From an uncultured Clostridia bacterium (lineage in GTDB: Bacteria > Bacillota > Clostridia > Oscillospirales > Ruminococcaceae): a stretch of 46,771 bases of DNA. Of this stretch, positions 35,028-43,111 are shown in pieces. The stretch lies in contig CANQRG010000013.1 of the NCBI GenBank assembly GCA_947626165.1, forward strand, positions 1-46,771. The letters are read 5' to 3'. Each line of letters starts with the position of its first letter. Positions within the stretch are counted from its first letter, which is position 1. A program made the translations under genes and the position numbers. A model generated the notes under the pieces. That model worked only from the letters and a program-made list of their open reading frames with translations, had not been told where the DNA came from and did not search any database.

Positions 35028-35174
35028 CTGATATATAATTAAACAGTTTAAACACAGCATTTAAGCCGTTTTTATTCCGTCTGTCACATTATCAAACAAA
35101 CATCCATTTCATCTCATTTATAAAAATTAAACAAAAAAGCCTTATATTTAAACTCAAATTTAGTTATATTTTTG

Positions 35175-35203
35175 TTGATTAAAATTTTAAAAAGTGATAT
35201 AAT
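35175..35203 (+). promoter_or_regulatory. Promoter of the surface-protein leader
   Basis: TTGATT (35175-35180), exactly 17 bases and a perfect TATAAT (35198-35203). Transcription would begin near 35210, giving a leader of about 308 bases before the surface-protein ATG. Confidence 0.75.
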
Positions 35204-35232
35204 TTATATAACTAAACGATTATGGTGATATT

Positions 35233-35301
35233 ATGATTTGTGTTACATACTCAATCCCAGTATATGTCAGGGGGGGGGGGGGGGGGGGGGGGGGGCATTA
35301 A
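35233..35301 (+). CDS. Short leader ORF running through the poly-G tract
   Basis: GGTGAT then an ATG at 35233, about 22 bases after the predicted transcript start. With the 26 Gs shown it encodes 22 residues including eight glycines and stops at 35299-35301, just past the tract. With one G more the frame would stay open to 35414, and with one fewer to about 35374. It is probably a control element rather than a useful peptide. No experimental support; the start site is plausible but weak. Confidence 0.4.
   Translation: MICVTYSIPVYVRGGGGGGGGH
35270..35295 (+). repeat. Homopolymer of 26 G, candidate phase-variation tract
   Basis: 26 consecutive Gs in a strongly AT-rich region, between promoter and surface-protein gene. 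Tracts this long change length by slippage at high rates. The exact number in the sequence may itself be unreliable. Confidence 0.85.
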
Positions 35302-35359
35302 GCCAACCTCTGTTTGCTGTATACAAAATATCTTATCATTATTGCATAAAGTTATATGG

Positions 35360-35394
35360 AGCAGTGTATCTTGAATTGGATATGCTGCTTTTTC
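35360..35394 (+). terminator. Intrinsic terminator inside the surface-protein leader
   Basis: An 11-pair stem (35360-35370 with 35379-35389, two wobbles) with loop TTGAATTG, followed by TTTTCT. It lies between the promoter at 35175 and the gene at 35518, so full-length mRNA needs read-through. Its overlap with two of the three possible leader frames suggests control by translation. Confidence 0.65.
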
Positions 35395-35517
35395 TATGTG
35401 TAATAATAATATAAATAACCAAAATTACAGAAATGGTAAAAATAAGTAAAACAATTTGACGGTATAAACATAAACTATAAAAAAGATTAAAATTATTTTA
35501 AAAGAAGGGAAATAATT

Positions 35518-38500
35518 ATGAAAACTTATTTCAAAGGAATACAGTTAGTAGCTTTGTCAATATGCTTGTTTATTACTAATTTTAGTACAAATATATTTTT
35601 AGATGTATCTGCTGAAGACTATGTAGCTAAGGTCAACGGAAAAGATTACACGTCAATTGAGAGTGCGGTAGACAGTATTGAAGATGAAGGCACAGTTGAG
35701 GTCATAGCAAATACATCATTGGACAAACAAATCACAATTGAAGCAGGAAAGAGTGTTACTATCAAGGGCGGAGATTATACCATTGAATTAGCGTCGTCAA
35801 GCACTGCTTTTAAAATTGAAAAAGATGGTTCTTTGACCATTGATGGAAATTTGACCTTTACTACTAAAGATGAGAATACAAAAGCACAAAGTTTTGTATA
35901 TTGTAATGGTTCATTTAAGTTTAATAATGGCACAATTGATATGAAGAATGGAATTTTAGGCTCAGGATCACTTATAAATGTTACCGGACCTGAAGCAGAA
36001 TTTATTTTTAATAATGGAACAATAAAAAATACAAAAAACGGCGGAGGTGTCTTTGTCGATAATCAGGCGTCTTTTATAATGAACGGCGGCACAATTAGCA
36101 ATTGCAGCGCATATTTATATGGCGGCGGCGTATTAGTTGAAGGGAAATCAAAAGATTCGAGTGCTGTTTTTACTATGAATGGCGGAGTAATTGAGAAATG
36201 TCAAGCACTTTATGGCGGCGGAGTTTGTATACGATATTATAATAATGACGGAAAAGCTGAAATGATTATGAACGGCGGAACAATAAGAGATAATATCGCT
36301 AAGAATGATAATAATAATCCCGGTGCTGGCGGCGGTATTATGATTTGGGACAATGCTGATAGTCAAAATGTATATTCTTCCGAACACATTTCGCTTACAA
36401 TGAAAGACGGTGAAATATCCAATAATAGCGTACCTTACGGTATGGGAGGCGGCATTGCTTGCTGCGGCGGTAAATTTACTATGGAGGGCGGCTCTATCAA
36501 TAACAATAAAGCATCATCTACTACAAATGGCTGCGGCGGCGGGGTTTACATCGCCACTAGCGGTGTTACTCTTAACGGAGGAAAAATTCAGAACAATGAA
36601 GCCGGTTTGCAAGGAGGAGGCGTCTATTGCGGAAGTACACCTTATATTGTAAAAGTTTATAACGCAGTAATCAAAGAAAATAAAGCTTCTATAACTGGTG
36701 GCGGCGTTTGGGCTTGCCCAACAGGAGACGTAAAGGTTTTTATCACAAACGGTGTTGCTGTATATGACAATACAGCGGAGAAAGCCGGAGATGATGTTGC
36801 GTCTATAAAAAATACTAATAGCGAAGACTATGTTTTGACACTGAGCGATCGTATGTTAGGTGGCGGTCAGGTGTTTTGGTATCTGGATGGAAAACTTAAT
36901 ACAACTCAAAAAGGTGATGAAAGTGAAAATAGGTTAGGTGTGCCGGATGATTCAGTACAGAGATACCCTGATACTGATCCTAATCCGATCACTGATATCA
37001 ATAATGCCACGGATTCTTATGTTTTAAAAGCGGTTGCAAGTGATAATGCGAAATCGCTTGCGATGAGCACCGCATCTCTGCTAATCACCGGCAATTCTGC
37101 ACCTCGAGGAGGTGGAATTGGTACAAACGGCGGTTTTATAATGGGTGAGGAAAATAATGATTACTCTCTAATTGTAAAAAAGGTATGGGAAAATACGACA
37201 GATGAAAGTCTAAAAAAAGAGTTGACGGTTTATCTTAAAATAAATGAGACTGAATTAGATTCTGTTAAGCTGAATTCCAATAATGATTGGACAGCAACAT
37301 TTGATGATTTACCTTCCCCTGACTCATTAGACAATGTTTCATATGCTGTTGTTGAGGATCCTGTGCCGGATAACTTTATTCCGTCTTATTCTCAAGCAGA
37401 AGTAGACAATGATGCTAGAACAATAAAGATAGATGTCACAAATACCTATTCTCCTCCTTTAGGCGGTCTGACGATAAGCAAAACGGTAAAAGGAGATGTG
37501 CCAAATTACCAAAAGGAATTTAAGTTTAGAGTAACATTTACAGATGAAAACGGAAATCCTATTGAGCAAGAGTTTAATTATACAGGCTCAAAAGAAGGAA
37601 TGATAAAGAGCGGAGGTACAATCACATTAAAGCACGATGAGAGTATTACTATCAATGATTTGCCTGCCGGAACAAAATACACGGTTTCAGAAGTAGACAT
37701 TCCTGATGGATACACGCCTGATAAATCAGAAAAAAGCGGAGTAATAGTAGGAAATGAGGTGACTGGATTAGAATATATCAATAATTACAAAGTCACACCA
37801 ACAGTCTACACTCCTCAAGTAACAAAAACGCTGACGGGTCAAACTCCGCCAAGCGACAAGAGGTTTACCTTTAACATTACTGCAAGCGAGAATAATCCTA
37901 ACGGAGCAGTTTTGCCTGAAAATACAACGGCAACGGTAACAGGTTCAGGAACGGCAAGCTTTGATAACATCAAGTTTACAAAGGCAGGAACGTATAACTT
38001 TGAAATCAAAGAGGAGCAGGGAAATGAACCTGGTTACAGCTACGACGGAAGCGTATGGACGCTGACGGTAGAAGTAACAGATGAAAACTCACAGTTAAAG
38101 GTAAGCAAAGCTGAATATACGAAAATCGGAGCGCAAAGCAGTGATGAAGCGTCATTTGAGAACAGCTACAGCACAACAAAGGTATCATACGCACCTCAGG
38201 TGGAAAAGGAGATCACGGGAGATAAAACTCCAAGTGATAAGACATTTACCTTTAACATTGAGGCAAGTGAAGATAATCCAGACGGAGCAGAGATGCCGGA
38301 AGATACGACAGCGACTGTAACAGGAGAGGGAACTACAAGCTTTGGAAACATCACATTTACAAAAGCGGGAACATACATATTCAAGATAAGTGAAACTAAA
38401 GGCAATGATGCAGGCTACACTTACGATGAGAGTGTGTATACACTGAAGGTAATAGTAGAAGATGTAGATTCAGCATTGACGATAAAGAGCCGCACATATG

Positions 38501-39291
38501 AAAAAGAGGGCGGAGAATCAAGCGAGGAAAGAGCATTATTTACGAACACCTACAGTGTAGAGCCGACAGAATATGCACCGCAGGTAGAGAAAACTGTAAC
38601 AGGAAATACTCCGAGTGATGAAACCTTTACGTTTAATATCAAAGCAAGCGCAGATAATCCAGATGGAGTAGAGATGCCGGAAGACACAACAGCGACCGTA
38701 AGGGGAGCAGGAAGCACAAACTTTGACAAAATTACCTTTACCAAAGTAGGAACATACACATTCGAGATAAGTGAAGAAAAGGGAAATGTATCCGGTTACA
38801 CTTACGATGAAAGCGTATGGACCCTGACGGTAGTAGTTGTTGATAATGAATCTAAGCTGGAAGTACAAAGCCACACTTACACAAAGGCAGACGGAACAGC
38901 AAGCGAAGATAAGGCAGAGTTTGAGAACATCTACATTCCAACAACTGAGCCGACTAATCCGACAAGTCCAACCGACCCAACAACCCCGACAACTCCTACT
39001 AAACCAACTAATCCGACAAACTCAACAGAACCTACAAATACGACTAATCCAACGAGTCCAACAGAGCCAAAGAAAACAACTACGACAAAGAGAACAGCAA
39101 GCAATCCGCCATACAGCAAGAGTCAAAACAACAAAAATACAAAAGGTGGAAACAACGGAAACACACCTGACACAGGAAGTGAAAGCGATAGAAATCTGCC
39201 GATTGCATTTTTGGTGACATTCTTGTTAGGGCTCAATACTGTTTACTTCTCATTCAGGAGAGGAAAGTTTAAGGGGAGAAAGGCGAAATAA
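35518..39291 (+). CDS. Large surface adhesin with beta-helix, isopeptide pilin-type repeats and sorting signal
   Basis: A 1257-residue protein. A signal peptide (about 1-33) leads to a parallel beta-helix-like region (about 90-520) of GGTI, GGGV and NGG repeats. A Cna_B-like domain follows (about 555-645), then a SpaA-like domain (about 650-757). Three tandem domains (about 762-885, 887-1012 and 1015-1138) each have KxxTG, PSDxxFTF, FTKAGTY and GYxYDxSV. These resemble the streptococcal pilin isopeptide-linkage domain. A Thr/Pro linker comes next (about 1142-1190), and the end is TPDTG, a hydrophobic helix and RRGKFKGRK, a sorting signal with T in place of L. Lys-Asn isopeptide bonds should stiffen the repeats. 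AGAAGGGAAAT precedes the ATG. Confidence 0.9.
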   Translation: MKTYFKGIQLVALSICLFITNFSTNIFLDVSAEDYVAKVNGKDYTSIESAVDSIEDEGTVEVIANTSLDKQITIEAGKSVTIKGGDYTIELASSSTAFKIEKDGSLTIDGNLTFTTKDENTKAQSFVYCNGSFKFNNGTIDMKNGILGSGSLINVTGPEAEFIFNNGTIKNTKNGGGVFVDNQASFIMNGGTISNCSAYLYGGGVLVEGKSKDSSAVFTMNGGVIEKCQALYGGGVCIRYYNNDGKAEMIMNGGTIRDNIAKNDNNNPGAGGGIMIWDNADSQNVYSSEHISLTMKDGEISNNSVPYGMGGGIACCGGKFTMEGGSINNNKASSTTNGCGGGVYIATSGVTLNGGKIQNNEAGLQGGGVYCGSTPYIVKVYNAVIKENKASITGGGVWACPTGDVKVFITNGVAVYDNTAEKAGDDVASIKNTNSEDYVLTLSDRMLGGGQVFWYLDGKLNTTQKGDESENRLGVPDDSVQRYPDTDPNPITDINNATDSYVLKAVASDNAKSLAMSTASLLITGNSAPRGGGIGTNGGFIMGEENNDYSLIVKKVWENTTDESLKKELTVYLKINETELDSVKLNSNNDWTATFDDLPSPDSLDNVSYAVVEDPVPDNFIPSYSQAEVDNDARTIKIDVTNTYSPPLGGLTISKTVKGDVPNYQKEFKFRVTFTDENGNPIEQEFNYTGSKEGMIKSGGTITLKHDESITINDLPAGTKYTVSEVDIPDGYTPDKSEKSGVIVGNEVTGLEYINNYKVTPTVYTPQVTKTLTGQTPPSDKRFTFNITASENNPNGAVLPENTTATVTGSGTASFDNIKFTKAGTYNFEIKEEQGNEPGYSYDGSVWTLTVEVTDENSQLKVSKAEYTKIGAQSSDEASFENSYSTTKVSYAPQVEKEITGDKTPSDKTFTFNIEASEDNPDGAEMPEDTTATVTGEGTTSFGNITFTKAGTYIFKISETKGNDAGYTYDESVYTLKVIVEDVDSALTIKSRTYEKEGGESSEERALFTNTYSVEPTEYAPQVEKTVTGNTPSDETFTFNIKASADNPDGVEMPEDTTATVRGAGSTNFDKITFTKVGTYTFEISEEKGNVSGYTYDESVWTLTVVVVDNESKLEVQSHTYTKADGTASEDKAEFENIYIPTTEPTNPTSPTDPTTPTTPTKPTNPTNSTEPTNTTNPTSPTEPKKTTTTKRTASNPPYSKSQNNKNTKGGNNGNTPDTGSESDRNLPIAFLVTFLLGLNTVYFSFRRGKFKGRKAK

Positions 39292-41209: not shown

Positions 41210-43111
41210 TTATTTGACTTTTACTTTCCTCGTCTTTTTGATCCAACTGCTATATACTTTCTGTGGCTTGCCGTTTGCATCTTTGTAAGTTGCATAAGCC
41301 CTTACTCGTACATAGTATGTCTTCTTACTCTTGAGCTTGTTGCTCTTGATCGTTATCTTTTTCTTTGCTGTCGTCTTGTCTGCAATCAGCTTCTTAAACT
41401 TGTTATTCTTTGATACTTGTACCTCGTAGCCTTTTGCATTCTTGACTTTCTTCCAGCTTACTACTATCTTCTTCTTTGCCTTGCTCTTTGCTGTAAGCTT
41501 TGTGATTTTTGCCTGTCTCATTACCTTTTCAGCATTTGCCTTATCCTTTGCAGCTTGTACTGCCTTGCCGTTTGCAGTTGTCTTTGGCGATGCTGTTGTA
41601 GGAGTAGTAACTGACGGGTTGTTAGAACCTGACGGATTGTTAGAACCTGATGGGTTATTTGAATCTGATGGATTATTGGAACTATCAGATGGGTTTGATG
41701 GATCTGACGGATTTGATGATGGGTCAGAAGATGGTGGAACTTCACTCTTCAACATTAAAGCATCAATTGCTGAATAAATATCTTCTGTTAAAAACTTAAT
41801 GCCTAAAACGTATGATTGTTCGTTCTTGGTAGCAGCTTTATCAACCAAAGCCTTTAAAGCACCGTAGCTTTCTTCTGTGTATTCTTCCTCTTTATCAGAA
41901 TACTTATTTGCCTCTTTAACTGCCTTATTCAGATCATCTAATTGATTTAATACTTCTTCTTCAATATCATTAGATAATTTCTGCTTATTTGCCACGGAAT
42001 CAATATAGCAGTATACCTCTGCGTTTTGATACGGCAAATTATAAAGCTGTAATGTTTTTGAATATATATATATATTTTCCATAGTAGTTCCTGAACCACT
42101 ATTATCATACTGAATTTGTGTAACACTTTCAGGAATTTCTAATGCTTTAAGATGATTTTTATAAAATGCTCTTGGTCCTATTTGAGTTAGCTGAGAACCC
42201 TCTTCAAATGCTACTTCAAATTCCGGATGATATTCATCTGTACCAGTGAAAGCATAGGACATGTTAGTTACAGAAGCAGGTATAACTAGCCTTTTCAACA
42301 ATGGACAGCCCACAAATGGTGAGTTATTAATACATGTAAGTCCCTCTGTCAAAGTTACAGATGATAGCTTTGCACAGTCTTTAAATGCCCAATTCTGAGC
42401 TAAACTAATACTAACAGCCATCTTAGAAGGCCACCTAGTTATTGATGACGGAATTACAACACTTTCAACTGCTGTATTTGCAAACGCTTCTATTCCGATT
42501 GAAGTTAATCCTTCCGGAAGGGTTATATTTTTTAATGAAGTACAATCTTTAAATGCCTGAGGTCCCCAACCATCACGACCATCCGCATCTCCAGGCTCAA
42601 TAGTTTTCGGAATGCTTACACTTTCAAGAGAGGTGCATCCTGCAAATGCATAAGAACCTATATCTGTCATACCTTCTTTTAAAGTAAGATCTTTAAGCTT
42701 TGTACATTCTGCAAATGCATAAGATGTTCCTGTTGATGCAGTTTGCTGTTCAAAATCTGTTATGGATCCTGGCAAAACTACTTTTTCAAGATTTGGAAAT
42801 TGATAGAAAGCACAAAATCCTATTGATGTCACGCCTTCTCCAATTTCTACTTCTCTAATATTTTCTTTATTTACCTTGTAAGTGTAGGTGTTAGGAAAAT
42901 CACCCAGTTCGCTAGTTTCAGTATAAGCAGGAGTAGCCATTGCTCCCTCACCCGAGATTGTAAGCTTACCTGTTGAACTGTCAAAGCTCCATGTTACACC
43001 TTCGCCGCAATTACCTGAGGTTGTAGCAGCTGACACACTCATTGCGCCTGTAAGCGCAGTTACTGTCATTGCTGCAGCTGCAAGCAATGACAAAAGTTTT
43101 CTAAGTTTCAT
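41210..43111 (-). CDS. BspA-like leucine-rich-repeat surface protein
   Basis: A 633-residue secreted protein. A signal peptide (about 1-29, ending SVSAATT) precedes a short start domain (CGEGVTWSFDSSTGKLTISG). LRR_5 repeats of the BspA type follow (about 75-345; LTSIGIEAFANTAVESVVIP and similar), then a helical segment (about 385-455) and a Ser/Pro/Asn linker (about 460-520). The end is a basic fibronectin-III-like domain (about 530-633; KIVVSWKKVKNAKGYEVQVS). BspA-like proteins mediate adhesion. The C-terminal domain is shared with the mobile-element protein at 22366. AAAGGAAGG precedes the ATG, and a strong promoter lies about 280 bases upstream. Confidence 0.9.
   Translation of the reverse strand: MKLRKLLSLLAAAAMTVTALTGAMSVSAATTSGNCGEGVTWSFDSSTGKLTISGEGAMATPAYTETSELGDFPNTYTYKVNKENIREVEIGEGVTSIGFCAFYQFPNLEKVVLPGSITDFEQQTASTGTSYAFAECTKLKDLTLKEGMTDIGSYAFAGCTSLESVSIPKTIEPGDADGRDGWGPQAFKDCTSLKNITLPEGLTSIGIEAFANTAVESVVIPSSITRWPSKMAVSISLAQNWAFKDCAKLSSVTLTEGLTCINNSPFVGCPLLKRLVIPASVTNMSYAFTGTDEYHPEFEVAFEEGSQLTQIGPRAFYKNHLKALEIPESVTQIQYDNSGSGTTMENIYIYSKTLQLYNLPYQNAEVYCYIDSVANKQKLSNDIEEEVLNQLDDLNKAVKEANKYSDKEEEYTEESYGALKALVDKAATKNEQSYVLGIKFLTEDIYSAIDALMLKSEVPPSSDPSSNPSDPSNPSDSSNNPSDSNNPSGSNNPSGSNNPSVTTPTTASPKTTANGKAVQAAKDKANAEKVMRQAKITKLTAKSKAKKKIVVSWKKVKNAKGYEVQVSKNNKFKKLIADKTTAKKKITIKSNKLKSKKTYYVRVRAYATYKDANGKPQKVYSSWIKKTRKVKVK

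Follow-up and report, generated by a model that had tools for sequence, protein, structure and literature searches.

The question raised by this locus is what a run of 26 Gs does in a short leader open reading frame (ORF) between a promoter and the gene of a predicted surface protein. The locus lies in 46,771 nucleotides (nt) of DNA from an uncultured Clostridia bacterium of the Ruminococcaceae (assembly GCA_947626165.1, contig CANQRG010000013.1), a stretch referred to here as the window. From the parts of the leader and a comparison of 48 complete copies, we consider it probable (about 0.8) that it belongs to a module acting as a phase-variable, translation-coupled transcription attenuator. 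Slippage during replication would alter the length of the G tract, and this length modulo 3 would set the frame in which ribosomes translating the leader ORF leave the tract. In the OFF phase, to which the 26 Gs would correspond, ribosomes would stop well ahead of the terminator stem, the hairpin would form, and transcription would not extend to the surface-protein gene; in the ON phases the ribosomes would run into or past the hairpin and prevent its formation, and RNA polymerase would read on. The same module precedes many surface-protein genes and some genes for LytTR regulators, ABC transporters and VTC-domain proteins throughout the genus, so that individual cells would display random combinations. 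If this is true, a whole gene set is switched by one kind of attenuator, and tract length in metagenomes could reveal ON and OFF states.

The leader at the window locus

Promoter, start codon, G tract, the stops of all three phases and the terminator were re-read in the sequence and lie where an earlier sequence-only reading had placed them (Table 1). The start codon is an ATG, and the putative Shine-Dalgarno sequence (SD) was assigned by eye. For a tract of n Gs with n mod 3 = 2, the leader stop falls at 35299-35301, roughly 60 nt ahead of the terminator stem; the other two phases stop inside or behind the hairpin. The promoter hexamers and their spacing are identical in seven related copies. 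In 1.6 kb, two terminator-like sites were found, the leader terminator included, versus 0.6 in shuffled sequences. The tract is the only run of at least 14 Gs in its own assembly (1.84 Mb, 98.3% complete). At gathering score, Rfam matched one tRNA in the window and no known leader or riboswitch, which rules out a known RNA family as the identity of the leader. That the arrangement at the window locus would exceed chance rests on the comparison of the 48 copies.

Table 1. Features of the leader and the gene behind it, in window coordinates
Feature	Position	Strand	Basis or remark
Sigma-70-type promoter, TTGATT-17-TATAAT, TG before -10	35175..35203	+	sequence scan
Hairpin H1, left arm, over SD (GGTGAT, 35224-35229) and leader start codon	35222..35246	+	predicted fold
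Leader ORF (start codon at 35233), assembled 26-G phase, predicted low state	35233..35301	+	stop directly after tract
G tract, exactly 26 Gs	35270..35295	+	counted in sequence
Hairpin H1, right arm	35319..35342	+	predicted fold
Intrinsic terminator between leader and gene	35358..35393	+	stem 35358-35391, T run to 35393
Stop for n mod 3 = 1 (e.g. 25 Gs), in hairpin loop	35372..35374	+	frame reading
Stop for n mod 3 = 0 (e.g. 27 Gs), beyond hairpin	35412..35414	+	frame reading
Controlled gene, product predicted secreted, probably wall-anchored surface protein	35518..39291	+	Cna_B, DUF7601, three FctA stretches

Copies of the module

A DNA search with positions 35130-35540 as query against 15 genomes of the genus located eight further sites with long matches, spread over four genomes. 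At seven of these sites the match stops at query position 284 or 285, directly behind the terminator; at the eighth, on contig C5 of genome G006 ahead of a homologous gene, it spans the whole query. As seven of the eight end behind the terminator, the leader is a repeated unit and not part of one gene, and a leader specific to the adhesin was ruled out. What the sequence-only reading had taken for the attenuator of an adhesin is thus a genus-wide module in uncultured Clostridia, located before many surface genes and some regulators, with the order promoter, SD, start codon, 10-13 codons, G tract, linker, terminator, gene.

Tracts of at least nine Gs (G9) occur at 100 sites in 14 of the 15 genomes. 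The 80 stretches examined contain 83 of these sites, the window included; most of the other 17 are situated at contig ends, and two of the 17 (G007, contigs C10 and C98) were examined later. By hand, 25 of the 83 were excluded as promoter spacers, coding sequence or other contexts, leaving 58 copies or fragments with G9 or longer, and after removal of ten that lie too near contig ends, 48 complete copies. Some copy counts are soft owing to contig-end fragments, two of which may be the halves of one copy (L073 and L074 are candidates), and 58 is an upper locus count among them.

A covariance model built from the 48 complete copies gave 76 matches in 12 of the 15 genomes at E-values up to 0.01, including six partial matches and three weak ones (L212, L213, L215) that by eye resemble plain terminators without tract or start codon. 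The genome of the window holds three of these matches and a fourth, window-type copy (L063) cut by the end of contig C16. Of 20 further stretches, 13 were scored for reading frames; L210, L212, L213 and L215 were dropped for lack of a complete module, and L217, L218 and L219 as a contig-end piece or stretches already in the set. The same model gave no match in 105 genomes of other genera (E 0.001, stricter filters), and a strict pattern matched two of 297 genomes of the family, both from the genus of the window, of which five genomes were among those drawn. A spread across the whole family is ruled out by these results. On species-representative contigs, the strict pattern found 30 stretches, all from seven assemblies named 'Lapin', in a set that may lack the records of the genome of the window or of one very near to it; the assembly name suggests rabbits as hosts.

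Frame arrangement, tract length and promoters

For each of the 48 complete copies we determined the start codon (GTG in L097-L099, otherwise ATG), the stop codon for each G count modulo 3 and, within 135 nt, the best terminator, and a phase was taken to reach the terminator when its stop lay no more than 12 nt ahead of the stem. In all 48 complete copies at least one phase reaches the terminator and at least one stops short of it; one phase reaches it in 35 copies, two in 13, and zero or three in none. The remaining phases stop at least 15 nt ahead of the stem, and in 28 copies the stop of a through phase is a TAG within the 5' arm of the terminator. A through phase is kept even though distances vary from 30 to 39 nt between start and tract and from 41 to 76 nt between tract and stem. 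When linkers were dinucleotide-shuffled, the arrangement arose in 11.9 of 21 cluster representatives versus 21 of 21 observed, and none of 2000 trials reached 21; with looser clusters at the 12-nt margin, 0 of 2000 shuffles reached 12 of 12 (70%) and 6 of 2000 reached 11 of 11 (65%), and with zero margin none of 2000 matched the observed number for any representative set, all of these figures being guides rather than probabilities because the copies are related.

The proposal that the phase of the G count decides whether ribosomes arrive at the terminator is thus supported by an arrangement that is common to all copies and goes beyond shuffled linkers. The further claim that two of three tract lengths would switch the gene on holds for the subfamily of the window and fails for the 35 copies with a single through phase. 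At their assembled lengths, 11 of the 48 copies are predicted ON; the window copy is predicted OFF.

The sequence-only reading had also proposed to count the tract in other isolates. Among the copies its length proves not to be fixed: the 26 Gs of the window compare with 11 in G006 ahead of the homologous gene and with a range of 9-12 for the remaining 57 copies counted. Contig ends cut four of the 57, so that 9 is a minimum there. Near-identical copies in different species also differ, with G10 in L075 and G9 in L091 at 98.1% flank identity. Differing tract lengths and the mixture of assembled ON and OFF states favour a phase-variable attenuator. Heterogeneity could alternatively come from slippage of RNA polymerase or ribosomes on a fixed tract instead of DNA slippage, with the attenuator logic unchanged; the long G run and the L128 cluster, where all seven copies have exactly G11, would fit this, the difference between L075 and L091 does not, and we give it a small chance.

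Of the 48 copies, 44 have a promoter-like sequence in the 100 nt that precede the leader start, versus 0.22 expected per copy from mononucleotide shuffles.

Genes behind the terminator

The product of the controlled gene in the window carries, by eye, a signal peptide and a C-terminal TPDTG followed by a hydrophobic tail, and from these sequence features an adhesin is a fair guess. Fourteen proteins encoded downstream of other copies were scanned with Pfam. They comprise BspA-type LRR_5 proteins (L065, L097, L123, L128), FctA proteins (L068, L095), a FIVAR protein with a weak SpaA match (L126), LytTR response regulators (L079, L122), an ABC transporter (L075), and proteins with a VTC domain (L062), a zinc ribbon (L060) and an RHS repeat (L082); in the protein behind L069 no Pfam domain was found. 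The spacing between terminator and gene start is 22-37 nt in ten copies, which leaves little room for a second promoter, and six of these (L069, L076, L082, L093, L104, L106) have a promoter matching at least 9 of 12 positions ahead of the leader. The gene starts picked for L070 and L072 (19 nt past the terminator) and for L131 are probably wrong and were not used.

These distances bear on an alternative in which the leader ORF would itself be a phase-variable gene, encoding a small functional peptide and followed by its own terminator, and transcription of the surface gene would start from another promoter. The SD and start codon are kept, the peptides show some likeness (MICxxxSIPxxV, MCxxxNxIKCK), and weak promoter-like matches lie at 35465-35493 and 35487-35516. 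Against this stand the scarce promoter room in the ten copies, the frame into the terminator that is kept throughout the 48, and a frame ahead of the tract that differs between close copies: L065 and L067 have 31 and 30 nt ahead of the tract and begin with MCINKLPIFN and MCTINSQFLT, respectively, yet both retain a through phase. We regard this alternative as very improbable. A conserved leader peptide is ruled out by the differing pre-tract frames, and it seems that translation rather than the peptide is selected.

Two types of inverted repeat without a T run, CAGCAAAG..CTTTGCTG and CGCACAGTTT..AAACTGTGCG, recur by eye between terminator and gene, for example in L065 and L078.

RNA structure

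Across the family, 92.7% of the cells in the H1 core and the terminator are paired, compared with 21-66% for slid versions, and 43 cells are changed on both sides versus 13.6 in shuffles. The covariation score was reached by none of 500 shuffles, the number of double-changed pairs by six. In the core arm of H1, both sides have changed in four of the eight pairs, and 89.6% of cells are paired; the terminator helices likewise show compensatory changes among the copies.

The left arm of H1 holds the leader start codon, and the predicted fold of the window places the SD under H1 as well. H1 may perhaps cause a pause or restrict leader translation to the first ribosome. A broader reading, in which the module is a dispersed, duplicating cassette with up to 15 model matches per genome ahead of surface proteins, LytTR regulators and transporters, where it would run a combinatorial, stochastic surface and regulatory programme, and in which H1 limits leader translation to the ribosome behind the first polymerase, is tentative, at slightly below even odds.

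The predicted fold also puts the G tract in the H1 loop, paired with C-rich stretches, as might be expected if the tract acted on the RNA or DNA level without translation, by pyrimidine pairing, as a G-quadruplex or by reiterative transcription like that of pyrG. In Bacillus, pyrG has a reiterative-transcription attenuator. The 5' arms of the terminators studied here are not pyrimidine-rich, unlike that of pyrG, and an effect of this sort would leave the SD, the start codon and the stop arrangement of all 48 copies unexplained; it appears quite unlikely.

Comparison with known systems

In the pyrBI attenuator of Escherichia coli, formation of the terminator hairpin is prevented when a ribosome on the leader closely follows the polymerase; there, the coupling depends on UTP and not on a slipping repeat. 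The sequence-only reading knew of no described case in which slippage was combined with translation-coupled attenuation. This does not hold, as excerpts of Danne et al. (2014; PMC3894217) describe and test the same logic in Streptococcus gallolyticus, where the leader of the pilus locus pil1 contains GCAGA repeats and phase variation occurs by an attenuation-like mechanism. With 22 repeats the leader stops 49 bp ahead of the terminator (according to the text; 39 bp in the legend of the model) and expression is low; with 21 or 23 repeats it stops 4 bp ahead of or inside the terminator and expression is high. Mutants of the start codon and the terminator behaved as predicted, expression depends on translation of the leader, and a second locus, pil3, is reported to be alike (PMC3894217).

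The Clostridia module resembles pil1 as described there in having a repeat within a short leader ORF, a premature intrinsic terminator and genes for surface structures behind it, and the window leader also in having two of three phases ON. At the window locus, a simple repeat lies within a leader ORF behind the promoter, with translation of the ORF suggested by SD and start codon; an intrinsic terminator, supported by sequence and covariation, separates leader and gene; and across the family some repeat phases stop ahead of the terminator and others at or in it. The repeat unit is a single G and not GCAGA, and the module therefore appears to work like pil1 but is not filed as its homologue. 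It further differs from pil1 and pil3, a pentanucleotide repeat at two pilus loci, by its occurrence at many loci per genome and in Clostridia. A further possible difference is the conserved hairpin H1 over the leader start codon. By analogy, the experiments in S. gallolyticus lend support to the proposed mechanism of the G-tract module. The principle is known from that species; the mononucleotide tract, the genus-wide gene set and the start-covering hairpin look new. Our literature search, with subscription papers and preprints mostly outside its scope, found the pili of S. gallolyticus as the only case of such phase-variable attenuation, and no version with a G tract.

Other poly-G switches resemble the module in part. 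In the gut commensal Bifidobacterium breve, slippage of a G10-G11 tract is linked to sortase-dependent pili; there the frameshift splits an ORF, unlike in the Clostridia module, and the passages on this switch contain no leader attenuator (PMC9187656). In porA of Neisseria meningitidis, according to excerpts, poly-G length likewise varies expression of a surface protein, with the difference that the tract is located in the promoter (PMC3639595).

Points against phase-variable attenuation

Several observations weigh against the reading as an attenuator switched by tract length. The 26 Gs of the window are an outlier in length and could be a mis-assembly, and the uniform L128 cluster shows no variation at all. 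The copies share ancestry, and the shuffle test overstates their independence. The short phases of L095 and L122 may not be OFF, since their stops lie only 15 and 17 nt, respectively, ahead of the stem. No promoter by the 9-of-12 rule was found within 100 nt in four of the 48 copies (L079, L103, L107, L123), three of which are among the four with the shortest terminator-to-gene spacings in the set of ten copies described above. The gene-finding rule gave no downstream gene in two of the 48 (L077, L087), and the gene behind L092 is 414 nt away. Among the additional stretches scored, nine are tract-poor (longest G run of four or less, or no start codon found), and three of these reach the terminator and six do not, so that a general locking of such relics in the ON state is not evident. 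The four other scored stretches (G8, interrupted G6 and G7, and G12) all stop short. In the excerpts on pil1, expression in a mutant that carried stops in three frames slightly exceeded that of the low state, a result the authors called "unexpected" (PMC3894217).

Additional observations

In the tract-poor copies L204 and L205, the frame enters the terminator, as if fixed ON. L203 has its stop 6 nt ahead of the terminator, and L206-L209, L211 and L214 do not reach it.

Poly-G may also be used in the genus in a second, promoter-type way, as suggested by tracts of G9-10 that by eye lie in or at promoter spacers, either as TTGACA-N9-G9-TATAAT or with TTGAC directly ahead of the tract. Such loci are L088 (G014), L125 (G008), L112, L113 and L115 (G001), and L117, L120 and L121 (G002). 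In L118 and L136, G9-10 tracts lie in long ORFs next to genes that by eye resemble those of glycosyl- and acyltransferases, which suggests phase variation of coding frames.

In the window copy's own genome, the contig carrying L063 ends inside the hairpin, and the locus precedes a secreted protein with a DMSGS motif, which by eye we take to be vWA-like. Near the FctA gene of the window, positions 41210-43111 on the minus strand encode a BspA-type protein with LRR_5 and fn3 domains.
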